Below are positions 906 through 53,920 of a DNA stretch of 64,000 nt, in pieces. Positions within the stretch are counted from its first letter, which is position 1, and every line of letters starts with the position of its first letter. Made by a program: the position numbers and the translations under genes. The notes below the pieces were generated by a model. It was not told where the DNA came from, searched no databases, and worked only from the letters and a program-made list of their open reading frames with translations. The DNA is from Hexactinellida sp. DTS-2022 (lineage: Eukaryota; Porifera; Hexactinellida), in the NCBI GenBank assembly GCA_028753945.1, contig JAPNXP010000002.1, forward strand, positions 5,704,001 through 5,768,000. Direction: 5' to 3'.

Positions 906-3361
906 CAGTGGCGTGGCTAGGGTGGTGCGCGGTGGTGCGGCGCACCACCTCAGGTGATGCGTATTTATATATGCTACGTACCAGTACAAGTGGTGCATAT
1001 AATGTGCACAAATACATTTTATGAGATTGGCAAACAAATGGTTTAACCGTAGACTGCCTAATCGCCACACAGTTTGGCAGTGCCAAAAAACGTAGTAAAT
1101 AAACTCCAAATTTCAAAATATTTCCGATTTAAAAATGTTTTTATATTCTCTATCGATTTCAATCATAAAAAAGTTTTTTTGAAATTTCAAGATGATGACA
1201 TAGCATAAAAGTGTCATCTGCCACTTGAATGCCACCTCAATTATAAATAATAAAATGTAAACTTTGGTTGTGCAAAACATGTTTGTTATGGAATTCAATG
1301 TATAGACCCTTTTTTGAATGTTTACTCGTATATTTATGGAGTTGTGGGACATAATGGAATTTTCTTACATTTTTCATCATCCATGGTTCAAAAAAACAAA
1401 CTTTAGTAGTTTTAATATATTGATGTAGATTTAGTATTATGCGTCCGAATCGATTTAAATATGTTATCCAAAATGGAATATTATGACCCCACATGATATA
1501 GTTTTAAAGTACGACCAGGGACTTCTTTAATATAGGGACTGTAAACTTCGTTTTACGGTAAAATTAGCGTAGGCCTAAAACAGTATTGATACTTATTGAT
1601 ATCCCGTATTCCGCTAATGCTAGAGATAGGAAATGTACTATTGTCGTATAGGAAGTCATATTTTGGGAGTCCAACGGTAATATTGGTTTATCGAAAATAT
1701 TTGTGGAATGTAAGTTATGCGATTTTCTCACCCTTCCATATATGGTAATTTTGTTAAAATCTCGAGATTACTTAACTTTATACATATGAAATGTATCATT
1801 TTCGTACAGGAAATCATATTTTGGGAGTCCAACGGTAATATTGGTTTATCGAAAATATTTGTGGAATGTAAGTTATACGATTCTCACACCTTTCCATATA
1901 TGGTAATATTGTCAAAATCTCGAGATTAGTTAGTTTTATACATATGAAATATATTATTGGCGAATGGGAAATGGGAATTCATATTTAGGGACTCAGTAGA
2001 TCACATTGATTTACCTAAGGCGTTCCCATTAGCCTATATTATTATTTTGGCACTCTCCACAGGAGGATTGCCCCGACCCTGTTTTGTAGTTTAGCTAATT
2101 CTTACATTATTAAAAAATCTTGATAAGTTTCTTTCAAATCTATATTTAAATCAATGTTGTCCAATAAAATGTATTCGGTTAACCGGTTACCGTTGCTGAC
2201 ATCGGTTAACGATTAGAGATTTTATTAACCAGTTAGCCGGTCTGTTGAATAACAGTAGAGTTATTGGGAAATTAATGTATAAAGTATTAAATTTTTTTGA
2301 ATTTTATCTGAATATGTAGTCCTATCACCACTTTATACATCTCATCACCACTTAATACATTTTATTGGACAACATTGATTTAAATATAGATTTGAAAGAA
2401 ACTATCAAGATTTTTTAATAATGTAAGAATTAGCTAAACTACAAAACAGGGTCGGGGCAATCCTCCTGTGGAGAGTGCCAAAATAATAATATAGGCTAAT
2501 GGGAACGCCTTAGGTAAATCAATGTGATCTACTGAGTCCCTAAATATGAATTCCCATTTCCCATTCGCCAATAATATATTTCATATGTATAAAACTAACT
2601 AATCTCGAGATTTTGACAATATTACCATAAATGGAAAGGTGTGAGAATCGTATAACTTACATTCCACAAATATTTTCGATAAACCAATATTACCGTTGGA
2701 CTCCCAAATATGATTTCCTGTACGAAAATGATACATTTCATATGTATAAAGTTAAGTAATCTCGAGATTTTAACAAAATTACCATATATGGAAGGGTGAG
2801 AAAATCGCATAACTTACATTCCACAAATATTTTCGATAAACCAATATTACCGTTGGACTCCCAAAATATGACTTCCTATACGACAATAGTACATTTCCTA
2901 TGTCTAGCATTAGCGGATTACGGGATATCAATAAGTAACAATACTGTTTTAGGCCTACGCTAATTTTACCGTAAAACGAAGTTTACAGTCCCTATATTAA
3001 AGAAGTCCCTGGTACGACTAACTTCATTTATTCTCAGGATATATCGTTTCAAAGAAAAATTGTTTGTCGCCATTTTTGGACAAAATATTGAACAAAATTT
3101 TGCAAAAGATTTTAAATGTTGACAAAATATGAATGCCTTGATGTCTTTTGAATATAAAAGTTAATTCTTTTTATTCAAAAGAATTGTAGTGAATTAGAAA
3201 TTCATGAAAAAGCTTTCGGCAGTATTGTGTTAATATGTTTATATTAACAAAATCCTCCGAAATACGCAGGAAATAAAATTTCACATGCACTTGCGCACCA
3301 CCGCAACGTGGCCGCACACTACCAGTGCACCACCATAAGTTGTATCCTGGCTACGCCTCTG
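906..3361. mobile_element. hAT-type element, 8-bp TSD, no transposase
   Basis: It starts CAGTGGCGTGGCTAGG and ends CCTGGCTACGCCTCTG, imperfect inverted repeats of the common hAT type. An exact 8-bp duplication CATGAAAT flanks it (898-905 and 3362-3369). There is no transposase; most of its length is the foldback at 1516-3011. Part of the left interior (about 1045-1500) resembles 29251-29720, so that stretch is shared with another element. Confidence 0.85.
1516..3011. mobile_element. Large foldback element, 7-bp TSD (Galileo/P-like?), copy 1
   Basis: Two inverted arms of about 655 bp, almost identical, surround a core of about 180 bp. Each arm holds two tandem units of about 166 bp (left arm about 1636-1970). 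The termini are CAGGGACTTC and the duplication is GTACGAC, 7 bp (1509-1515 and 3012-3018). The 70-codon open frames in the arms simply reflect the repeat. Long foldback arms with internal tandem repeats plus a 7-bp duplication are features of Galileo elements of the P superfamily; the assignment is by structure only. Confidence 0.85.
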
Positions 3362-7155: not shown

Positions 7156-9053
7156 CTAAATTCCCACTGTGCTCTGAGTCTTGCAATGCTTACATCTGCA
7201 AGCTGAGCTGCTAGAAATACCGAGAGAAGCACTCTGCATTGCCTCTGTCGGGGTAATCGTTACAGGAGGAACGGAATCCAAAGAGAGAATGTTAGCTGGA
7301 CATAATTCAAACTGGTTACGGCTATAATTAACTGCCAGTGTTCCTTGAGTCGTGCCGATGGAGTATGTAGATTCATCTCTACTCGTAATACATCCAAGGA
7401 TGTTGCGAGGACCCAATGAGTGCATCTTATCAGGCCGGTAGATAGGGATTAATACTGAATCTCTCACTTCAGCATCCTTGAATTTCTTCGATGCAGTATT
7501 AAGCATTCTGTCTTGTTGTTTCTCCTGACAGCGCTTGATACCAGCCCTCATCTTGTTGCACTTTTCTTTTCTTGATGAAAAGTCACATGCGGGACGCACA
7601 ACACTGCTTCCGTAGCCTTCCTCTCCCTCAGACCTTCCACATATGATGTGGATGAAGCCAAAACAGCGTGGACATGTGTGTGCACCAGAAGTTACTACTC
7701 CACAAACTACACAGTCTAGAGTGGAAATCGAACAACTAGCCTGAATAGGATCTGGTGAAGTTAACGGAGATCTTGTAGATGTGTAATAATTAGATTCAAG
7801 TAATTCATCTGAAATCTGGTTTTCGGAGACAAAGGAACTTAATAGAGGTGGTGGAGCAGTGATATTTGAATGAAAGGACATCAAATTGTCACTGACAATT
7901 GTCCCAACTGGGATAGCTGTCAAAATTTCATTCTCGTACTCGTCGATTTGAGTGGGAAATTTCGAAAGAGGAGGAGATGGAATTGACGAATACGATTGAT
8001 ACTCGCTTACTTCTAACTCTGCGTTTAGAACCTCTGCAAGACCAGGTTCTACAATGTTCCTCTGGAAGACCTCGATATCATCTTCAGTATTAATATCTGG
8101 CCAGAATTCATGGGGTATGCCAATATTCGTTAGTTCCATTGGCGGCTTCTTGTTATAAACAGCTTCATAAGGAGTCATCCGGATAGCAGTATGATAGCTG
8201 GTGTTATGATTCCACTGAACCCACCTTAGGTACTTCACCCAACAATGGTCGTTGTTGTTATCTCGCATCATTCCGAAAAGGCCGTCTTTGATATCTCTTT
8301 CCACAGCACCCTGGGACTCTGGGTGTCTGGGTTTTCCGTGGACTATTTTTATAGTTGGCCATTTCGTTGCTAGAGTAGTAGAGAGGAGATTGTTAGAGAA
8401 CTCCCTACCATTGTCTGAGTGGAGAATGTGTGGAGGTCCGGAGTCTCAAAAGATATCGAGCAAACTCTCGCATACCTCTTCAGCCGACTTACGTTTAAGC
8501 GGAACCAGGTTGATCTTCTTGGTAAAATGATCCAAATAGACCAACAGATATTTGTAGGGTGCAACCCCATCAGCGGACAAGTTGACCTCGAGATTTTGAT
8601 CGCTCATATCGATCAAGTCCATCTGTGCCCTGCTCAGGAAATGGGTGGATGTGATGGTTTCACAACTACACTCTTAAGAGACTTCTTGGCTTTCTTTAAG
8701 TGACATACATGGCAAGTTTTGACAAAAAGCCCACAAATCTTTTCTGTCACGCCATGATATTTCAGAGCAGCGTGCTTGTAGAGCTTGGTTCTACCTGTAT
8801 TAGGCCGGATCAAGAAAAGTACAATTGGTCGGATCAACTTCTACCTAAGGGAAAAGTTGCCTTTACTCCTTTCTAGGATTATAAGAAATTTAGATCCGAA
8901 AAATATATTGATTTGACCCTTGCGGTTTAATAGTTTTGCTGTGTCACTTTCACATAATTGACCTTAAATCCTCCGAATTTTCAAAATCCTTTGACTTAGC
9001 CCCTTTAAATGTATTAATTAGTAATAGTAAGTCGCCAATTTGCTGTCGAATAG

Positions 9054-9062
9054 TATATAAAG
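9054..9062 (+). promoter_or_regulatory. TATA-like box inside the left TIR
   Basis: TATATAAAG lies about 350 bp before the transposase start codon. Being inside the inverted repeat, it has a mirror copy at 11768-11776 on the minus strand, so each end may carry an inward-facing promoter. This is inferred from sequence alone. Confidence 0.4.
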
Positions 9063-9411
9063 CTAATCTCCATCTATTAGGATACTAAAGTTATGAAGAA
9101 TTTCTTTGTATTTTCGATCATACCCTAATAATATCACCCCCCCCCCCTCCTTCCCTCCTTCTTCCCCAAATTTGAAAATGCATAACACTAGCTTTATAAT
9201 TGTCAAACATAGTTGATTTCTGTGTCTAAATCTAAATTCATCATTAAATTGGTTTAAAGATATTTCATACACATTCCTTAACCCATGCATTTAACTTAGT
9301 TACCATTTATCTAATATGGAATTTATGGTTAATTATTGTATCTTCATAAATACTCTGATCAGATCAACCCTTTAGAGTATTTTTATTCCTATAATTTATT
9401 GATCTTTGAAT

Positions 9412-11577
9412 ATGGCAGAATACACGCGTGGTAAAATATTTCATCCTGTGTTCGGTTACCCTGGACCTATACCAGAAAATCAACTCCCAACAAAACTAGA
9501 TCTGTATAATCATTACAGAATGCTTAGAAATGAAAATTCGAAATTCACTAGAGACGATATTGCGAAAGAACTTACACAAATAATAGTGCGCATCTATGAA
9601 AAGTCTTCTATACCAACAATATCTGAGATCAAAATAAAACAATACATCAATTCTGGTATTATTGAGAGAGCTAAATACCACGGAAAAAGTATCCAAAACA
9701 AGCAACAACCTGACCGTGTCCAACCTATAATTTCCGAATTCAATGTTCTGTTCGACGTCTCGAGTTGTAAATGCCCGATTGAAGAAGGCAAATGTTTTTG
9801 CTCTTTCGATAAAAAGATACCAAGCCGCGAGTGGCCATTTCTCCTTGATCAGCGAAACGCTAGAAAATTATTTTTATCCAGCTTGGATCGCTCGACCACC
9901 TCCAAAAATATTGCTGCTCAAAAGAGAAAAGAGGCACAATATGAAAGAGAAGAAAGCGAACTGAAGAGACAACAACCTGATCAACCTTCGCAGGAATTTT
10001 TAGAATGTGACCTTGAAGAGTTTGAATCTTACGACCCAAATACATCGAATAATCACAAGCATACACGTAATCATAATCAATTGCGAAATTTAGCCATAAT
10101 GTGTGATAGATATCAGATAAGCGATCGCGCAGGCGCAGCTATAGCCAACGCAGTACTCCAGGATTACGGTATTATCACACCAGATGAAAATAGTCTAATT
10201 ATTGATAGAAACAAACTACGTAGATCGAGATTTTCAGAAGGAAGGGTTCTAGCTAACGAAGCTCACGAGAATATCACGGATATCACTGCGATTTATTTTG
10301 ATGGCCGTAAAGATCAAACTCGAGTGATGGTAGAGAGAGAGGATGGAAATCTGCACCAGGATACTGTGAATGAAGAACATTACACCGTCTTATCTGAACC
10401 AGGAAATCAGTATATTGCCCATGTAACACCTAGTTCTGGTAAATCAAAAGATATAGCAAGGGAATTGGTTGATCTTTGCAGGGAGCGGAATTCAGATTTA
10501 AAGGCTGTTGGAGCTGATGGAGCTCGAGTAAACACTGGAATCCATAATGGATGTATTAGACTCCTTGAACTAGAGTTCTCAAAACCACTCCACTGGTTTA
10601 TTTGCCAATTACACAGTAATGAACTTCCATTGAGGCATCTCTTTGAGAGAATAGATGGGAAAACCAGTGGACCCAATAGTTTTAAAGGAGTAATTGGAAA
10701 AGAACTTAATTCTGATTTTGCTAGCAAGCCAATCGCGGTTTATAATCCTATATGCGGTAAAAGTCAGTACATCAATTGCGAGATTCTCAACAATTTAAGT
10801 ACAGATCAGAAATATCTATATAATATATGTCATGCAGTTCAGTCTGGTAACTGCTCATCTGAACTTGCATCGATGCAACCTGGCCCTATACATCATGCTA
10901 GATGGACAACTTTAGCCAATAGGTTACTTCGATCTTACATTTCAACGATCCATCCTACACCTGAATTATCCCGAATTGTCTATTTTATCGTCAATTACTA
11001 TGCACCAGTTTGGTTTAGAATTAAGAGTAATTCTATATGCACAGATGGACCTAGAAACCTATTATATGCAATATCTTTACTGCGAGAGTTGCCGGACTAC
11101 GATCAAGAAGTAGTTTGTGATGTGCTACAGAGAAATGCATATTTTTGTCATCCAGAAAACCTTCTGTTATCGATGCTTGCAGACAATGATGTGCAAATTA
11201 GACAAAAGGCAGTCAACACTATTTTAGATATCCGCACCAACAATTCATCATTTGGACAGAATGAAATTCGCCCATTTAAGCTTCGGTTCACTGCTGAAAC
11301 ATACGTGGATATGATTGATTGGGAAACATCTCTTATCACAGAACCGCCTTTGACAAAACACCTCTCAAAAGAAGTACTACTTAATAGTGTGTATACTCCT
11401 ATAGAAATACCAGGATATCCATGCCATACACAAGCTGTTGAAAGAACTATTCAACTGGTTACAAAAGCTTCATCATCAGTAACAGGGGAAGAGGCGAGAC
11501 ATGGATTAATTCTTACAAAGCTAACCTCGAGAGAACAAATGCCTGCTTTTGAGTCAAAAAAAGATTATACATGTTAA
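9412..11577 (+). CDS. DDE transposase, hAT-like uncharacterised family, intact
   Basis: A 721-residue protein from the first in-frame ATG (9412) to TAA. A cysteine cluster CKCPIEEGKCFC (residues about 119-130) may bind zinc. A charged, probably coiled stretch spans about 165-205. The catalytic region shows YFDGRKDQT (Asp 297), VGADGARVNTG (Asp 369), a C-x2-H motif in WFICQLHSNEL (398, 401), LSTDQKYL, HARWTTLANR, a helical region with HPENLLLSML, and HTQAVERTIQLV (Glu 677) near the end. The D, D, CxxH, E order is that of hAT-like RNase H transposases. From memory, similar proteins occur unnamed in arthropods, cnidarians and molluscs. It should cut and join the ends of its own element in the nucleus. 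No BED finger or typical hAT C-terminal dimerisation motif is visible, so membership in hAT proper is uncertain. Confidence 0.88.
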   Translation: MAEYTRGKIFHPVFGYPGPIPENQLPTKLDLYNHYRMLRNENSKFTRDDIAKELTQIIVRIYEKSSIPTISEIKIKQYINSGIIERAKYHGKSIQNKQQPDRVQPIISEFNVLFDVSSCKCPIEEGKCFCSFDKKIPSREWPFLLDQRNARKLFLSSLDRSTTSKNIAAQKRKEAQYEREESELKRQQPDQPSQEFLECDLEEFESYDPNTSNNHKHTRNHNQLRNLAIMCDRYQISDRAGAAIANAVLQDYGIITPDENSLIIDRNKLRRSRFSEGRVLANEAHENITDITAIYFDGRKDQTRVMVEREDGNLHQDTVNEEHYTVLSEPGNQYIAHVTPSSGKSKDIARELVDLCRERNSDLKAVGADGARVNTGIHNGCIRLLELEFSKPLHWFICQLHSNELPLRHLFERIDGKTSGPNSFKGVIGKELNSDFASKPIAVYNPICGKSQYINCEILNNLSTDQKYLYNICHAVQSGNCSSELASMQPGPIHHARWTTLANRLLRSYISTIHPTPELSRIVYFIVNYYAPVWFRIKSNSICTDGPRNLLYAISLLRELPDYDQEVVCDVLQRNAYFCHPENLLLSMLADNDVQIRQKAVNTILDIRTNNSSFGQNEIRPFKLRFTAETYVDMIDWETSLITEPPLTKHLSKEVLLNSVYTPIEIPGYPCHTQAVERTIQLVTKASSSVTGEEARHGLILTKLTSREQMPAFESKKDYTC

Positions 11578-12416
11578 ATTAACTGCATATAATATAATTG
11601 AACCTTGCTTTATTCAACAACTGATCAAAAAGCTAGTGTTATGCATTTTCAAATTTTGGGAAAGAATGAGGGAAGGAGGGGGGGGGGGGGGGGTGATATT
11701 ATTAGGGTATGATCGAAAATACAAAGAATTTCTTCATAACTTTAGTATCCTAATAGATGGAGATTAGCTTTATATACTATTCGACAGCAAATTGGCGACT
11801 TACTATTACTAATTAATACATTTAAAGGGGCTAAGTCAAAAGATTTTGAAAATTCGGAGGATTTAAGGTCAATTATGTGAAAGTGACACATCAAAACTAT
11901 TAAACCGCAAGGGTCAAATCAATATATTTTTCGGATCTAAATTTCTTATAATCCTAGAAAGGAGTAAAGGCAACTTTTCCCTTAGGTAGAAGTTGATCCG
12001 ACCAATTGTACTTTTCTTGATCCGGCCTAACCTGTATGGTTACCTTCTAGCCTATGAAGCGAGTCCAATTTATCGTACAGCTCTTCTATTGCCAACACTC
12101 TTCTGGATATTCCATCTTTCTTGCCCTTAAGATACAGGATACTTGTTCCCTGATAAGACACCAACTCAAAACGGTCCTGAACCCTTTGCCATCTGGAAAG
12201 TTCATTCTTCTGGAGGACGGATGGTTTGGTACTTTGGAGTAAAGTTATTTTATTAGCTATATCAACTCGCGTAAAAGTAGCACTTGATGGCTCCGTCGAT
12301 ATAGTTAAGAGTGACTTGTCCAATTCACTCCTGGACATGTTCTCTTCCAGTCGATTCAAACGGTATTCACAAATAAGAGATATTTCGAATACGCCCATTG
12401 AACTATTTATAAGCAA

Positions 12417-12640
12417 CTTTGCAATTTTGTTAACAGTTACAGTTTATGCGATCACAAACCAGCGGATAACATCAAACAGATGTCATACTTCAATCTATTA
12501 GGCAACAATGCAATTGCAGGAAATACTTTGAACATTCTGATGCAATCACTATTTGTTTATGCTATCATCATACAATATTCTAAAAGTGATAATCGTCATT
12601 ATTTATAATACAGTTTAGACTGTTATTTGCTTACCTAATA
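12417..12640. other. No feature seen
   Basis: AT-rich sequence upstream of the broken integrase gene; it may contain the gene's lost 5' end, but no start or terminal repeat was recognised. Confidence 0.4.
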
Positions 12641-18175: not shown

Positions 18176-19782
18176 CTATTGGAAAATCTGTATCTTGTTC
18201 GTTATAATAGCACGACAGAAGAGGCATATATCACCGGGATTAAAATTCGATTCACAATTTCCACATACTTGTGCCTGTCCACACGGTATGAAAGCAAAGG
18301 TTGAATCTCTAGTGATCAAACAAATTGCACAAGGATTTATCACCAAAAGTTCTAGATCGCTTGTACCTTCAGAATCTTCATCATTACTTTCGTCCAATTC
18401 TGTAGATTCAGAGTAATTATGAAATTGAGGATTACCAATGGTATTTGAAATTCCTTTAATATATTCTAGTGCTGTGCATTCTTTTCTTTCAAGTTTTTCT
18501 TTACATTCAATTCTCTTTTTCTCATTATTTATTTCCTTTGTGTTCCGCTCGCCAATATCTAAACCATTCTTTAATCTCTGATATTCAAGATCTTATTTTT
18601 CAGCGTCTTTTCGAGAGATTCCATGAAAGCCCATATATTAGGCTTCTTCACACGGATGAAAGATTTCAGACCCCGATGATATACTTCAGAACAGTTATTT
18701 GTTTTCTGTATAGAATGGTATATTGATAAATCATTTCTTTTGATCCATTCTCTCTTTATGTAACTTTTAAGCTTTTGAAGATTAATAATTTCATTGTCAT
18801 TCAGATTTATTGGTGTAACATCAGATAGCAATCTGTAGACTGATGCAATTTCTTCTCCAGGTAACATGGGAAGTACCATAATAGACCTAATCCATCCATT
18901 AAATTCAGATTTCTTTGCATAATTGGAAGAAAGATGTAATTTTGTTAACTTTTTCCCAATAGCCTTTGAATAATGAAAAAGACATCCAGATAATTCTATT
19001 GAATTGAAAGCTGTACGAAATGAATTTCTTGATGCTTTTTCATAGTCACCTACTGCTAATTTTGGTTTGAAATCAGGCATCAATTCTATTACCTTTTGCA
19101 GAACAGCATCATAGAGAGATTGAGATTTTTTTGACATTAATATATGTATGGCTGGCATAGCATGATGACCTTCTTGTAGGAAAATAGTGAACAACTGGTA
19201 GAATAATTTCGGGACGACATAAAATGTTGCGTCAAAATTTATAGCATCAATATTTTTGAGAGAATCAAGTATTAGATCTGACCAGAATTGAGAAGCGAAA
19301 CCTTCTAATGAAATTACCATTGATTGAAAAAAGGGTGAAAAACGTGTTTGTTTGATCATTACTTCAAATTGTTCAGGTGTTTTAGGATTGCCTGGTAATT
19401 CAAGTCTTCTTCTTTTCACCATCGTATTGCGGACGCTTCGATAACTCAATAATGCACCTGCCTGATCTGTAGAAGTCACTTCATCAAAAATTTGCCTAAG
19501 ATTATCTGTTGACGATTCTGCAGCACGTTTGATTTTATTATTGAGAATAATTACACTGGATTTATAAGAGGCTTCTGTGTGATTATGAAATTGTTTTGAG
19601 TAGAAAAGATTGCATATGAGATCAATTCGCCCTGTACCAAGACAATTTATTCCATTACTCCTCCAAAGACTACACCTCAAATGAATGGATGTTGAGGTCG
19701 ATGAGGATTGAATATATCGAAAACTTTGACATCCATAGTTCACAGAACCAATCTTTTTACCTTCAATAATTTTATATTCCAT
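18176..19782 (-). pseudogene. MULE transposase with FLYWCH-like and RING fingers (one frameshift)
   Basis: Starting at ATG 19782, a 403-residue frame carries a FLYWCH-like Cys/Cys/His-x-His region (residues about 36-68). The MULE catalytic core follows: INFDATFYV (Asp 184), AVGDYEKA (Asp 246), GCLFHYSKA (C-x2-H, 267-270) and NNCSEVYHRGLK (Glu 366). The frame ends at 18571. Another frame picks up exactly there (EYQRLKNGLDIGERN) and continues through a charged linker into a RING-like C-terminus: CAIC, IPCGQAQVCGNC, CLFCR, ending at 18176. In that finger the usual His after PCG is Gln. A single small frameshift near 18590 therefore separates two parts of one protein of about 530 residues. The role is transposition of the 15402-20719 element. 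Confidence 0.87.
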
Positions 19783-38720: not shown

Positions 38721-38785
38721 TGAGAAAAGTGGAACTCGCAAAAATCTTCAAAAGTAGACACAACCAAAGTGAATCCTGACAAACA

Positions 38786-39709
38786 CAGGGGCGTCGGAAG
38801 CGTGAAATCGGGTAGGGGGCAATCAGAATTTAGAGGGAGCACAGACAAAAAGCTAATTCTTAGTAGTATAAAGTTCCAGGGAATGAAAGGTTCACGAACG
38901 CGAACGAACTTATTGAACTTGAACTGAACGAACTGAACGCAGGGCTTTTAAGCAATTCACGATGAACGAACTGAACGAACGCCAACGGTTTCCGAACGGC
39001 AATTGAACGAACTGAACGAACTGAATTGAACGAATCGAACGGATTAAACGAACTGAACTTAACGAACTAAACTGAATAAAGATAAATTAGAAATATTTAT
39101 CCATTAAATATAATAGGTGACTGCAAAAGTGGTAATTCAGGACGTCTCTAGTGGACTCATGTCTGTTAGCTTAGATTCTAGCTTCTTAACCTGAACTTCA
39201 ATAAAGCTTGGAGTATCGAACAGTCTAGCATAAACGGAATAGTTCGACCCACTCACTGTACACTGAACTAACTGAACTGAACGAATTGAACGAACTAAAC
39301 GAACTGAACGAACTTAATTGAACGGATTGAACGAACGCGGGTCAGCCCATGAACGAAATGAACGAACGCTGGAGGAGCTGAAGTTAGGAGGTGAACTTGA
39401 ACGAACTGAACGTGCGTCGATTTGAGATGAACTGAATTGCATCAATTCTGTCCGTTCGTGAACCTTTCATTCCCTGTACTATAAACCCAAAGTGATTTAT
39501 GTCTTTTTTGATAGTTTCACTTCGGATAAGAGCAGTGGTATCATGACATTTGAACTCATGTGTATCATTGGTGTTGTTATTTCATCTATTTGGACAGGGG
39601 AAGGGGCTCAGGCGAGGGGATGCACAGATGAGGGGGGCACAGTGGGGGGGCACCGAGATTTTTGAGGGGGGCATGTGCCCCCCTGTGCCCCCCCCTTCTG
39701 ACGCCCCTG
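38786..39709 (+). mobile_element. Composite hAT (CAGGGGCGTCGGAAG), copy 1
   Basis: Ends CAGGGGCGTCGGAAGCG and CTTCTGACGCCCCTG; exact duplication GACAAACA (38778-38785, 39710-39717). It encloses the GAACG element 38877-39476. No transposase. Confidence 0.94.
38877..39476 (+). repeat. GAACG-rich insert, copy 1
   Basis: Bounded by CAGGGAATGAAAGGTTCACG and CGTGAACCTTTCATTCCCTG. Both halves are loose tandem arrays of GAACGAACTGAACG-like units around a unique core of about 130 bp. No clear duplication. The same insert sits at the same place in the other composite copy. Confidence 0.9.
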
Positions 39710-39717
39710 GACAAACA

Positions 39718-41237
39718 GTGTACAAACGGAGCAGTCTCCCCGGGCACCTAGGATTTGGTCCTGTTAATGAGAAGATTTAGAGAACGTCTCTAGAAGATTC
39801 AGTTTTGAAGATGAGTTGCGGGATAATTTACACGTTCACTTGCCCAGAGTGATACTGTTCTAGTTGGATTTCGTAAAATAGCAAAGCGATAGGTATTAAA
39901 TGATAAACATCCCCCAAGCTATCAAGAACCACTAATAAACTTATTCAATGATCCTACCCTCATCTACCCCTCCCCCATTCCCCTGGGCAATCTCGCTCCC
40001 CGAATCATCTCCATTTACTTAGTAATGCTTCTATTGTAACTACTAGAGGCTACCAGTTATACAGGAAGAATATAGGAGTGCGGCTCTGCATAACCTTCTA
40101 TTGTTTCCAAAGTGTGAAGTGTGTGTTACAGAGTAAATTGAAGAAAAGGCGGAGGGCGGTTACCTCCTCCCTCTTCGGTGCAGAATTGTTTTGAAGAAGA
40201 GTCCGGTAGCCATAGCATCCACTGCTACACAAGGGCAAGGGCGCGCCAATTCTCAGCTAAGGTTTTGCAACTATACAGCGTAAATTTCAAATCAAACCAA
40301 AGCATCTACAAATAACAGTGGGCATTTAGTGGTGTAAGTGGAAATAGGAAAAACTATGCTAGATATACTGTAATGAGGCATTATTGACATATAGGTTATT
40401 GTTAGCTCGAAATCATCAAAAATATTGTGTTGTAATCTCATAACAGTAGTTTTGGACTATCAATGGTAAATTCATGATTTTTACATTCGTGGTTTTGTAA
40501 CAATCATATATTAATCACACATGATTATTGATAATACTTCTTAAACCTTGGTAAAATAATTGGAATTTTAGTCTTATCCAAGGTATTCTTTATCGCATTG
40601 AATTTAAAGGGGTAGATGGGTGCTGAGTGTAACTATCGCAGGTGCAAATACTTTTAGGAAACCCTGGATAGTCTAGGTAAAATAGTTGTATAATATGGAA
40701 CATTGCCAGGGCCGCGGAGAGCCATATGTGTCCCGAGACTGTAAGATTTCGGGCCCCAATTTCTATTCACTAATTTCTACATTTTAAATTGTTAAGAGAG
40801 TAAATACGAGCGAAGTACTGAAAACACGGTTGAGTAACCTGGATTTTCACCCCAAAGGTGAACTAAATATTCGTTCTCGAGTCAATTCCAATCCGCACCC
40901 CGACAGATCGAAATGTTATCAAACTAAACTATTAATATGATTATTAGCAAACATATATTCAGCGTTCTCTCAAAAGAAGACTATTCTGGCTTTTTTCTTA
41001 GCAAATTCATCTATAACTGTCTGTTATAGATGCAGTTACTAGTAAACTACAATCTACAATAAATCGAAAAAGAAATACTCTATTACAAGCATGCTTCGTT
41101 GTTGCGCTGATCAGATGAACAACACTGCATTATTATGCAAACTGTAAGTAGAAAACCGACTCGAAATTTATGCTCTGTGAATGCTGTGGATTTATTTAAT
41201 TAAAGAATTACATATACGTATACAGCTATATCTTATA
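39718..41237. other. No gene seen; dispersed repeat 40330-40580
   Basis: 40330-40580 matches 6015-6270. A CAGGGCCGCGGAGAGCC motif near 40708 looks like a hAT end without a partner. No coding region was recognised. Confidence 0.5.
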
Positions 41238-41420
41238 CACTAACCAGCCAAAAGTATTTGAACAATTGGAGTATTAATGCAAACTGCAATAATCGTCTGG
41301 TAACTTATTAGAGGCTCTTTAACTTCAATTTAAACTGTTAACAGCTAATTTGAGCTGTTAACAACCAATTTGAACTGTTAACAGCCCAATTCTAGCTGTT
41401 AACAGCCAAATTACATAAAA
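41238..41420. repeat. Partial TA MITE end plus GCTGTTAACAGC array
   Basis: CACTAACCAGCCAAAAGTAT after TA (41236-41237) is the left end of the 12641-13204 family; no right end was found. 41328-41405 holds four or five units of about 20 bp centred on the palindrome CTGTTAACAG. Confidence 0.75.
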
Positions 41421-41919
41421 GAAATGCAATATTATCAGTTCAAATATATATAAACAATATTTCAATTATGGCATTAGTTAGCAACTAGCTGTTAATTAAC
41501 AGCTTCGATTTTCATTTGCTGATGAGGAAAACCAGTATGCAATTTCCGAATATCGAATATGAGAAATTTAAAATTAACATTAAAATACTCTACAACAAAG
41601 TAGTTTATATGCATAATATTATAAGTTAAGAATTCATATATCCTCGGTTATAGCCGAATCAAATTTGTATGCATTATGAATCCATACCAGACAATTGTCG
41701 GCAATTCACTATATAGAAATATGATTTTGAATAGTAAGCTCAATTATGAAATGTTCCTTACTCTATTTAGCGATGACTGTTTGTTTAGAATTAAATAAAT
41801 TTGGATTGAGTAATTTTGCATAAAATTATAAATATTTTGTTCTAAAAAATAGTGATGAATAGAACTTAATAATATTTGAAATTCTATCCGGACAGACATC
41901 AGTTTAGGTACTTATACGA
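41421..41919. other. No feature seen
   Basis: AT-rich sequence with no recognisable gene or repeat ends. Confidence 0.4.
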
Positions 41920-41927
41920 CTTTTTTC

Positions 41928-42866
41928 CAGGGGCGTCAGAAGGGCGGGGCACAGGGGGGCACGTGACCCCCTAAAAAATTTCGGTGCCCCCCCCCCCCCA
42001 CTGTGCCCCCCTCATCTGTGCATCCCCTCGACTGAGCCCCTTCCCCTGTCCAAATAGATGAAATAACAACACCAATGATACACATGAGTTCAAATGTCAT
42101 GACACCACTGCTCTTATCCGAAGTGAAACTATCAAAAAAGACATAAAATCACGTTGGGTTTATAGTACAGGGAATGAAAGGTTCACGAACGGACAGAATT
42201 GATGCAATTCAGTTCATCTCAAATCGACGCACGTTCAGTTCGTTCAAGTTCACCTCCTAACTTCAGCTCCTCCAGCGTTCGTTCAGTTCGTTCATGGGCT
42301 GACCCGCGTTCGTTCAATCCGTTCAATTAAGTTCGTTCAGTTCGTAGAGTTCGTTTAGTTCGTTCAATTCGTTCAGTTCAGTTAGTTCAGTGTACAGTGA
42401 GTGGGTCGAACTATTCCGTTTATGCTAGACTGTTCGATACTCCAAGCTTTATTGAAGTTCAGGTTAAGAAGCTAGAATCTAAGCTAACAGACATGAGTGC
42501 ACTAGAGACGTCCTGAATTACCACTTTTGCAGTCACCTATTATAAATAATGGATAAATATTTCTAATTTATCTTTATTCAGTTTAGTTCGTTAAGTTCAG
42601 TTTGTTTAATCCGTTCAATTCGTTCAATTCAGTTCGTTCAGTTCGTTCAATTGCCGTTCGTAAACCGTTGGCGTTCGTTCAGTTCGTTCACCGTGAATTG
42701 CTTAAAAGCCTGCGTTCAGTTCGTTCAGTTCAAGTTCAATAAGTTCGTTCGCGTTCGTGAACCCTTCATTCCCTGGAACTTTATACTACTAAGAATTAGC
42801 TTTTTGTCTGTGCACCCTCTAAATTCTGATTGCCCCCTACCCGATTTCACGCTTCCGACGCCCCTG
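41928..42866 (-). mobile_element. Composite hAT, copy 2 (inverted)
   Basis: Reverse-oriented copy of 38786-39709 with its own exact duplication CTTTTTTC (41920-41927, 42867-42874), so it inserted independently. The GAACG insert is 42168-42775. Confidence 0.94.
42168..42775 (-). repeat. GAACG-rich insert, copy 2
   Basis: Same boundaries and flanks as 38877-39476, in reverse, with small unit-level differences. It was present before the composite was copied. Confidence 0.9.
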
Positions 42867-42874
42867 CTTTTTTC

Positions 42875-50640: not shown

Positions 50641-51077
50641 AATTAGTTATAGCGTATTCTCCAGATTCGTAAACCTATAAGTAAATGCGAATTACAAAGC
50701 AACTCAAGTGATATCTCTATAATTTTGCTAATCATGGTAGACAACCACAAAATTCTTAATATGATTTTTCAAGGTTTCATATTAGTAGTTTAGGAATTCA
50801 AGCATGCATTTCAACTCTATAGTAATTAGGCATTTTGTAAGTTATGAATAGGGAGTATTTTTAGAGCTCTTTCTAATGGTAAGATTATAATTAACGTATC
50901 TTCTGAGTAATTTATGATATTCTAATTTCAAAACAATATGGAATTTCTCTATTTAGTATTGGTAGCTTTACGTGCTGAAACTGATGCAACTAATTTTGCC
51001 TGTTGTTGCCCGTTGTAAATTAAGAAGTATTTTATAGTAAATTGTATTTATAACATAATAAAACAATTCCTAGGTTA
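50641..51077. other. No gene seen
   Basis: AT-rich sequence between the RT remnant and the foldback; nothing recognised. Confidence 0.5.
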
Positions 51078-51084
51078 CCCGGAG

Positions 51085-52582
51085 CAGGGAATTCTTTAAT
51101 ATAGGGACTGTAAACTTCGTTTTACGGTAAAATTAGCGTAGGCCTAAAACAGTATTGTTACTTATTGATATCCCGTAATCCGCTAATGCTAGACATAGGA
51201 AATGTATTATTGTCTTATAGGAAGTCATATTTTGGGAGTCCAACGGTAATATTGGTTTATCGAAAATATTTGTGGAATGTAAGTTATGCGATTTTCACAC
51301 CCTTCCATATATGGTAATTTTGTTAAAATCTCGAGATTACTTAACTTTATACATATGAAATGTATGATTTTCGTACAGGAAATCATATTTTGGGAGTCCA
51401 ACGGTCATATTGGTTTATCGAAAATATTTGTGGAATGTAAGTTATACGATTCTCACACCTTTCCATATATGGTAATATTGTCAAAATCTCGAGATTAGTT
51501 AGTTTTATACATATGAAATTTATTATTGGCGAATGGGAAATGGGAATTCATATTTAGGGACTGAGTAGATCACATTGATTTACCTAAGGCGTTCCCATTA
51601 GCCTATATTATTATTTTGGCACTCTCCACAGGAGGATTGCCCCGACCCTGTTTTGTAGTTTAGCTAATACTTACATATCAGATATCTGTCATTATGTTGT
51701 TTATTAAAAAACAACAAGGCTGGATTCGGTTAACCGGTTACCGTTGCTGACATCGGTTAACGATTAGAGATTTTATTAACCAGTTAGCCGGTCTGTTGAA
51801 TAACAGTAGAGTTATTGGGAAATTAATGTATAAAGTATTAAATATTTTTGAATTTTATCTGAATATGTAGTCCTAAATCCATTTCTCATCACCACTTAAT
51901 ACATTTTATTGGACAACATTGATTTAAATATAGATTTGAAAGAAACTTATCAAGATTTTTTAATAAACAACATAATGACAGATATCTGATAGGTGGGAAT
52001 TAGCTAAACTACAAAACAGGGTCGGGGCAATCCTCCTGTGGAGAGTGCCAAAATAATAATATAGGCTAATGGGAACGCCTTAGGTAAATCAATGTGATCT
52101 ACTCAGTCCCTAAATATGAATTCCCATTTCCCATTCGCCAATAATAAATTTCATATGTATAAAACTAACTAATCTCGAGATTTTGACAATATTACCATAT
52201 ATGGAAAGGTGTGAGAATCGTATAACTTACATTCCACAAATATTTTCGATAAACCAATATGACCGTTGGACTCCCAAAATATGATTTCCTGTACGAAAAT
52301 GATACATTTCATATGTATAAAGTTAAGTAATCTCGAGATTTTAACAAAATTACCATATATGGAAGGGTGTGAAAATCGCATAACTTACATTCCACAAATA
52401 TTTTCGATAAACCAATATTACCGTTGGACTCCCAAAATATGACTTCCTATAAGACAATAATACATTTCCTATGTCTAGCATTAGCGGATTACGGGATATC
52501 AATAAGTAACAATACTGTTTTAGGCCTACGCTAATTTTACCGTAAAACGAAGTTTACAGTCCCTATATTAAGGAAGTCCCTG
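51085..52582. mobile_element. Large foldback element, 7-bp TSD, copy 2
   Basis: Same family as 1516-3011. Ends CAGGGAATTC and GAAGTCCCTG; duplication CCCGGAG (51078-51084, 52583-52589), 7 bp. Arms hold the same two 166-bp tandem units. It differs by an extra AACAACATAATGACAGATAT block in both arms. Being in both arms, that change suggests arm homogenisation or gene conversion. Confidence 0.87.
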
Positions 52583-52589
52583 CCCGGAG

Positions 52590-53920
52590 TTAGCCCAAAA
52601 AAACCTTAAATGTTTTTTTGTGAGGAGCTTAGAATTTTTAGCCATTATTTTACCCAAATCTTATTAAAATTTATATTATGATTGATTATTAGATTAGCTC
52701 TCAACGCAATTTCTACACTTTTGAACAACGGTTGGAAGCATATAACTTTTACATCTCTAATCTAGAGAAAAGTTCAAGTTTATATAGTGTTTACTTTTCG
52801 CACTACTGGAGTGACTATTCGGAATTTTCCTGAAATATTGAACATTCCAGAATTACTGACTTGTCACTCGAGTATGTGTGAAATGTAAACATGAGATCAG
52901 AAATCGAACTTCATCGCCCCTAACTAGATAGTTAGTACTAACTTAATATGCATTAACATCGCATTGATAACTACCCAATTCTCTCGGAAATCCTTTATAT
53001 AGTCAATTACGATCAATTTTCAAAAAATATTGAATAATAATAGCACGTCATTTAGTTCCAGATTCACATATTTGGCTGTAACTCCGTAAGTATACGAGTT
53101 AGAGAGTCAAACTTTTATTTGAATAATAGCTGATAGAATAGGCTGGAGGCTGGGATTAATGTAACAATTTAAATTTTGGTTTTAAATTGCAGGTGACCGG
53201 AGGCCTTAAGGCTCTCCAGCCCTACTGAGCAAACTCGTTTTTAAGTGTTATTCTATGACTACATCGTATAATGAATCTATGAATATTCTCACCTCAACTT
53301 GCGAATGCATACCTTTCCCATAGCATCAATTACAAAAATAGCACTATATGGAATCAATACAAATATCCATATAGTTATTTATACAGGTTACTTTGCGATT
53401 ATTCTGCTATGGTTATATATTAAGTCGATATGCCTATTGATCAATTGTATAAAGTATCCAGGTAGGGAGCTATGAAGCCAGATTCACAAAAATGATTATA
53501 ACTTCTTTTAAAACACGTCATCCCTTCTGAATTTTCGATAATTTGGCTATCAAACATTTATGATGTGCCTATTTTATTAGTGTTACACAAGTTTATGTTT
53601 TATTTTTGGAAATAACTCTCCATTGCTCCCTACCTAATACATTTATCTATTGATTACACTAAAGTTCATAGCTCCACTATAGACACAGTTCTTAGCAAAT
53701 TTTATGAATTGGGGTCAGGTTTTGCTGATCCCCGGGATTTTTCTAATGAGATTTCTTCATTATGTAAACTTTGGCTGCCCATAATTTGTTTTTTATCGAA
53801 TAGAATTTGCTCAAACATTGCAGAAGCATTTACCCATATATTCTATGCAACATTCAGGAAAAACCTCGATTTTTCGAAAAATTGGGGGATTTCAGGGTTC
53901 AGTAGGGCTGAAGGGCCTTA
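52590..53920. other. No gene seen; dispersed repeats
   Basis: 52940-53150 is a diverged copy of 32130-32380. CTTAAGGCTCTCCAGCCCTA (53203) and its near complement at 53896-53920 bracket about 700 bp without a gene. The 70-codon frame at 53709-53921 has no motif. Confidence 0.5.

Follow-up and report, generated by a model that had tools for sequence, protein, structure and literature searches.

Which kind of transposon carries mirror-image ends of some 395 bp and encodes a transposase that matches no Pfam family? The question is raised by a 3,229-bp element at positions 8801-12029 of the window, a 64,000-nucleotide stretch of the Hexactinellida sp. DTS-2022 genome (GenBank assembly GCA_028753945.1, contig JAPNXP010000002.1, positions 5,704,001 to 5,768,000 of the forward strand). 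The initial annotation had proposed a candidate new hAT-related group, set apart by TAGGC termini, very long terminal inverted repeats (TIRs), a CxC...CxC cluster and the lack of a BED finger. We find that this interpretation holds in part: the element is intact and young, with hAT-like features, a D/D/CxxH/E motif order and the CxC cluster, but its TAGGC termini are not a mark of the group. Probably it is an autonomous cut-and-paste DNA transposon with a single aspartate-aspartate-glutamate (DDE) transposase, built on an RNase H-like core with a Hermes-like helical insertion.

Structure and insertion site of the element

The boundaries first proposed for the element were borne out on re-reading. 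It begins with TAGGCCGG, ends with CCGGCCTA and is flanked on both sides by an exact 8-bp target-site duplication, ACCTGTAT (8793-8800 and 12030-12037). The left TIR (8801-9195, plus strand, ~395 bp) and the right TIR (11629-12029, minus strand, ~400 bp) pair over 351 nt at 99% identity without a gap; alignment of 400-bp arms gives five mismatches and 12 gap columns in all, with three mismatches and no gap in the first 330 columns, in line with the roughly three differences counted initially. The arms are broken up by a C run near 9137-9147 on the left and the matching G run near 11680-11693 on the right. Between them lies the single-exon transposase frame (9412-11577, plus strand), which runs from an ATG through 721 codons without interruption. 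Neither Rfam nor tRNA scanning of the window produced a match.

When the two flanks of the window copy (8601-8800 and 12038-12240, together 403 bases) were joined and compared with the genome, they matched 21 rows beyond the two rows of the window locus itself, and 12 of these span 390 or more of the 403 bases within 390-416 bp of genome, with the element absent. Because the flanks recur without the element, the window copy must have interrupted one member of a repeated sequence, adding one extra ACCTGTAT. The empty sites lie at paralogous places and do not represent the window locus in a second individual. The interrupted host sequence, itself a multi-copy element on the minus strand (7156-8445 and 12027-12443), carries a SCAND3-type zinc finger (PF23663, E 3.4e-8), and an integrase-like stretch was recognised in it by eye only, including the left flank used in the search, where no profile matched.

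Copy number, age and activity

A DNA search of the sponge's own genome (112 Mb in 18 contigs) with the element returned 68 matching rows, many of them arms matching one another. Thirteen copies were read: L001-L012, which are near-complete, and L013, which is broken. The near-complete copies differ pairwise by only 2-36 substitutions over ~3,230 bp in a star-like pattern, the closest pair being L001 and L002, which lie on one contig at a distance of ~26 kb and differ at two positions. Perfect 8-bp duplications, all mutually different, flank 10 of the 12 copies (nine as first read, and L009 after its boundary was shifted by one base). The flanks of the 12 copies, compared with each other, gave no match at E 1e-5, and on this dissimilarity segmental duplication was rejected as the origin of the copies. 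A domesticated gene or an assembly artefact has nothing in its favour beyond the missing profile match; for the window copy it is refuted by the multiple copies, their different flanks, the duplications and the paralogous empty sites, and we give it next to no credence.

The initial annotation had suggested that the element may still be active. The ATG frame of 721-724 codons is open in four of the 12 copies (L001, L005, L006 and L007), while L010 retains 717 codons, L003 688 and the other six 237-562. Across codon positions 1, 2 and 3 the private changes of the frame are spread evenly (22, 21 and 25), as under drift, and the copies have therefore drifted since a recent burst without visible selection. 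This burst was not the first wave, since older relatives of the same family are present at 80-88% DNA identity.

Several observations on individual copies stand apart from these results. One contig, C11, carries eight of the 13 young copies (L013 included) yet makes up 13.8% of the genome (binomial P ~9e-5), an excess that may reflect local hopping or a repeat-rich chromosome. On the same contig, L013 (position 5637) and L019 (position 369), ~17 kb apart, each show an element end, and the 8 bp that come after it are identical in the two but oppositely oriented (GTCTCCAT / ATGGAGAC); L013 is itself rearranged, and a transposon-induced rearrangement, a misassembly or chance are all possible sources of the shared 8 bp. 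L012 is split at its positions 2028-2727 by a nested 700-bp insert with inverted ends of its own (GGTTCAGGTATACTC...). At L061 (C11:1-600) the contig begins in a ~210-bp tandem repeat, judged by eye, and no telomere-type repeat was seen there. Across the genome, collagen repeats give 135 profile matches, which would fit an animal, although this profile also scores in 3 of 14 control genomes, all of them prokaryotes.

Target-site preference

Among 17 sites examined (those of the 12 young copies, four sister elements described below and one split copy), 13 yielded a duplication: ten come from young copies, one from each of the sister elements L040 and L041, and the last from the split copy L013/L019, where it is inferred. 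T at position 2 and A at position 7 occupy 20 of the 26 places in these duplications, and a pyrimidine at 2 or a purine at 7 occupies all 26; neither figure was equalled in any of 20,000 sets drawn at random with 65% A+T. The ten young copies taken alone gave 14/20 (p ~0.0008) and 20/20, respectively. The resulting nTnnnnAn pattern has been reported for Hermes and hobo, that is for the Ac group of hAT elements (PMC10368747, PMC8961557), and it argues against a Mutator-like element (MULE), an alternative taken up below. Duplication length points the same way as the pattern where hAT is concerned: 8 bp in 10 of 12 young copies and two of four sister elements, with 8 bp being usual among hATs although members with 5, 6 or 7 bp exist (PMC12730594).

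Transposase motifs and sister families

A protein search of the same genome gave 64 rows and, among 13 sister loci examined, three sister families represented by four elements (L040, L041 and the pair L043/L047, the last two forming one family at 99% DNA identity) at 37-41% protein identity to the window protein. L040 is present in one complete copy, and its open frame spans 751 codons from stop to stop. All four elements have inverted arms of 337-410 bp; the remaining sister loci are fragments or too short to show their ends. The four also start with TAGGG, a hAT-like terminus, in place of the TAGGC of the window family. Because the sisters share the architecture and not the terminus, the architecture must be old and TAGGC a local variant, and the proposal that TAGGC marks the group has to be dropped.

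Conservation was read from a four-row protein alignment (A2) and from broader sets (A3 and A4, the latter including damaged rows), whose rows are high-scoring segment pairs longer than 65 residues with E no higher than 1e-6; near-identical young copies, loci with too-short matches and L050 and L053, which are the same places as L047 and L049, were left out. The motif order noted initially as resembling hAT is invariant throughout A2, and its first three elements lie in register with those of hATs. The putative first catalytic Asp, D297 (YFDGR, 10300-10302), is kept in nine of ten covering A4 rows and aligns to the first hAT Asp; the second, D369 (ADG, 10516-10518), is kept in 11 of 12 and aligns to the second; and the CxxH motif (C398-H401, 10603-10614) aligns to that of hATs, being missing in some damaged A4 rows. 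Further on lie an RW motif (R497-W498, 10900-10905), likewise invariant in A2, whose Trp is the likely equivalent of Hermes W319, and the presumed catalytic Glu, E677 (QAVER, 11440-11442; 11 of 12 covering A4 rows). W498 is less certain to be needed for catalysis than the other residues, since the Kat1 mutant W576A still cleaves (PMC4763223). Upstream of this core, residues 119-130 (9766-9801) form the CxC...CxC cluster, a putative metal-binding part of an N-terminal DNA-binding region, which was correctly noted at first and is conserved in the L040, L041, L043 and L047 rows. All of these motifs lie on the plus strand.

The long arms of the sister elements also bear on whether such ends say anything about the transposon group, or whether they are an effect of the host, produced by foldback formation or gene conversion. 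Long inverted arms also mark at least two further kinds of element within the window. One is a foldback-like element of ~1.5 kb present in two copies (1507-3022 and 51077-52591), with arms of ~635-669 bp that are 98-99% alike and built partly of 158-bp tandem units; the other is a probable element of ~4.1 kb (38778-42874), with inverted arms in pieces 96-99% alike and GAACTGAAC-type short repeats. Long ends may therefore be partly a habit of this genome. However, arms of this length recur in four of the 13 sister loci, and private changes per base are no fewer in the arms of the young copies (34 in ~796 bp) than in the frame (68 in 2,163 bp), so that no ongoing homogenisation is seen. On balance we consider a pure host effect unlikely.

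Comparison with known transposase groups

Searched against Pfam at E up to 10, the window protein matched no family, and Pfam, NCBIfam and PDB sequence searches together gave nothing useful. In particular, it matched neither the hAT dimer domain (PF05699), the MULE profile (PF10551) nor the P-type RNase H profile (PF21787), each of which scores at least 150 places elsewhere in this genome, which is very rich in DNA transposons. Neither the KDZ transposase profile (PF18758), with seven matches elsewhere in the genome, nor the profiles of cysteine-cluster domains, which are found together with KDZ transposases, detected it. No known finger domain was found, in keeping with the absence of a BED finger noted initially, and the BED profile likewise missed all 39 A3 rows; a recognisable BED is not carried by all hATs. 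The 15 Pfam families that single A3 rows matched at E up to 1 do not include PF05699 and were rejected as unrelated and weak (HEAT, the commonest, matched three of the 39 rows, and the lowest E overall was 0.0038). No relative turned up when viral contigs were scanned with the protein and a four-row alignment, or when prokaryote genome contigs were scanned with the alignment, a result that has no bearing on other eukaryotes.

In predicted structural models of both the core and the full protein, VIA-align placed Hermes as the best alignment, with a lead of ~3 Z units for the core and 1.6 for the full model. The distance from the second Asp to the Glu (D2-E) is 308 residues in the window protein, near the 310-325 of Hermes. 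VIA-align, the nTnnnnAn-bearing 8-bp duplications and the D2-E spacing thus favour hAT over MULE and P; the Foldseek ranking does not.

A number of results weigh against a hAT affinity and have to be set beside this. With the full model, Foldseek ranked the IS256-type ISCth4 (E 1.6e-3) above Hermes (E 1.1e-2), and with the core model ISCth4 came first while Hermes was absent among the 50 matches listed. Confidence in the models is middling (mean predicted local distance difference test scores, pLDDT, of 62.4 and 71.2, with values below 50 just after D297 and around E677), and both use one family alignment, hence are not independent; middling Z values in VIA-align, up to ~13 for helical models, can moreover reflect a common arrangement. 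Profile comparison with ten hATs, picked for long open frames among the 150 listed hAT dimer matches, yielded a weak link (probability 27.5%, E 6.5e-4), with an alignable overlap too poor to carry a tree, and the two hAT subgroups taken apart gave E 0.13 and 0.015 against the window family, versus a probability of 98% between each other. Single-sequence profile comparisons (ten hATs, one hAT fragment, one MULE and one P-like fragment) returned nothing reliable, which makes the P and MULE controls of the profile test weak. The lack of any Pfam match and the silence of a dimer profile that works elsewhere in the genome count on the same side, as does the absence of 8-bp duplications from two of the 12 young copies (L002 and L004) and two of the four sister elements (L043 and L047). 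Finally, the spacing from the CxxH His to the Trp, 97 residues, is closer to that of the MULE Muta1 (94) than to that of Hermes (51).

Together with the first place of ISCth4 in Foldseek, this last spacing is among the points that would fit a divergent MULE. TIRs of more than 100 bp with duplications of 8-10 bp are typical of MULEs (8-9 bp in Muta1 and others) and are found here too, and MULE transposases share the D-D-CxxH-W-E order with hATs (PMC5225508). Yet PF10551, which stays silent on the window protein, does detect the window's own MULE at 18571-19782, and the D2-E distance of 308 contrasts with 136 in Muta1 and 107 in ISCth4 (D241 to E348), well outside the range of about 110-140 that we read from these two proteins. 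The VIA-align preference for Hermes in the models and the target bias also speak against a MULE, as does, weakly, the empty single-sequence comparison. Nor do the arms of the window element contain repeated words: no word in the arms of the four elements compared, as candidate subterminal binding repeats, exceeded the 95% shuffled level, the C run of the window family excepted. We regard a MULE as improbable.

Discussion

The element inserts with an 8-bp duplication, is missing from paralogous sites that remain unfilled and has multiplied recently. How the encoded enzyme achieves this can be sketched by analogy with hAT chemistry. The core, with D297, D369 and E677, would carry a long helical insertion after CxxH that bears the RW motif, as in Hermes; the CxC-bearing N-terminal region may bind both ends; the core would then nick at the TAGG termini, freeing the element and leaving hairpins on the flanks, and the ends would be joined to target DNA with an 8-bp stagger at nTnnnnAn-like sites. 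Because the ~395-bp ends mirror each other, both should offer the same binding surface, and the simplest reading is that both are bound alike.

Hermes and hobo are among the closest parallels, sharing the duplications and their bias, the D-D-CxxH-W-E order, the helical insertion and an element size of ~3 kb. They differ in their ends, since the two ends of Hermes, stretches of ~450 bp capped by 17-bp TIRs, are unlike each other, and the BED domains of Hermes bind DNA asymmetrically (PMC10368747), whereas the element described here has mirror images and a protein with neither a BED nor a hAT dimer match. Unusually long TIRs in a superfamily of shorter ones are also known from Galileo of the P superfamily, where they contain several demonstrated transposase-binding sites (PMC3688188), and 8-bp duplications are shared with Zisupton/KDZ elements (PMC12730594), whose profile the window protein does not match. 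Among the helical-insertion transposases as a whole, Hermes stands beside Transib, the P element and the V(D)J recombinase RAG1 (PMC7780238).

We conclude that the element works like a hAT and is probably related to hATs, but we do not count it as a member, because duplication length, target bias, core motifs and the VIA-align result agree with hAT, and the TIRs and the dimer and BED profiles do not: hAT TIRs are defined as short, 10-25 bp (PMC3942097, PMC8961557), against ~395 bp here and 337-410 bp in the four sister elements, and a CxC...CxC cluster stands in the place of BED. Alternatively, the element could belong to a separate superfamily-level lineage, sister to hAT among helical-insertion transposases and outside it. 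Its distance from all ten hATs compared, the missing dimer and BED matches, the un-hAT-like ends and three sister families of the same architecture would suit such a placement; hAT itself is favoured instead by the VIA-align ranking, by the TAGGG with which the sisters start and by the target preference, and fast divergence alone could hide a dimer domain. This placement strikes us as a serious possibility, though not the likelier one. More tentative still is the specific proposal of an unnamed superfamily-level branch beside hAT in which a CxC-CxC module reads symmetric ends of ~400 bp in place of BED and dissimilar ends. In the titles and abstracts searched, a scope that leaves aside subscription papers, Repbase and Dfam, no long-ended hATs with such a protein were noticed. 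Similar unannotated proteins presumably occur in arthropod and cnidarian genomes.

Since no Pfam model matches the group, annotation pipelines based on profiles would miss its copies. A recently mobile relative with mirror-image ends could test how much of the end asymmetry of Hermes is essential, and if the group is indeed a branch beside hAT, it would constitute a natural experiment on the need for end asymmetry in hAT-type transposition.

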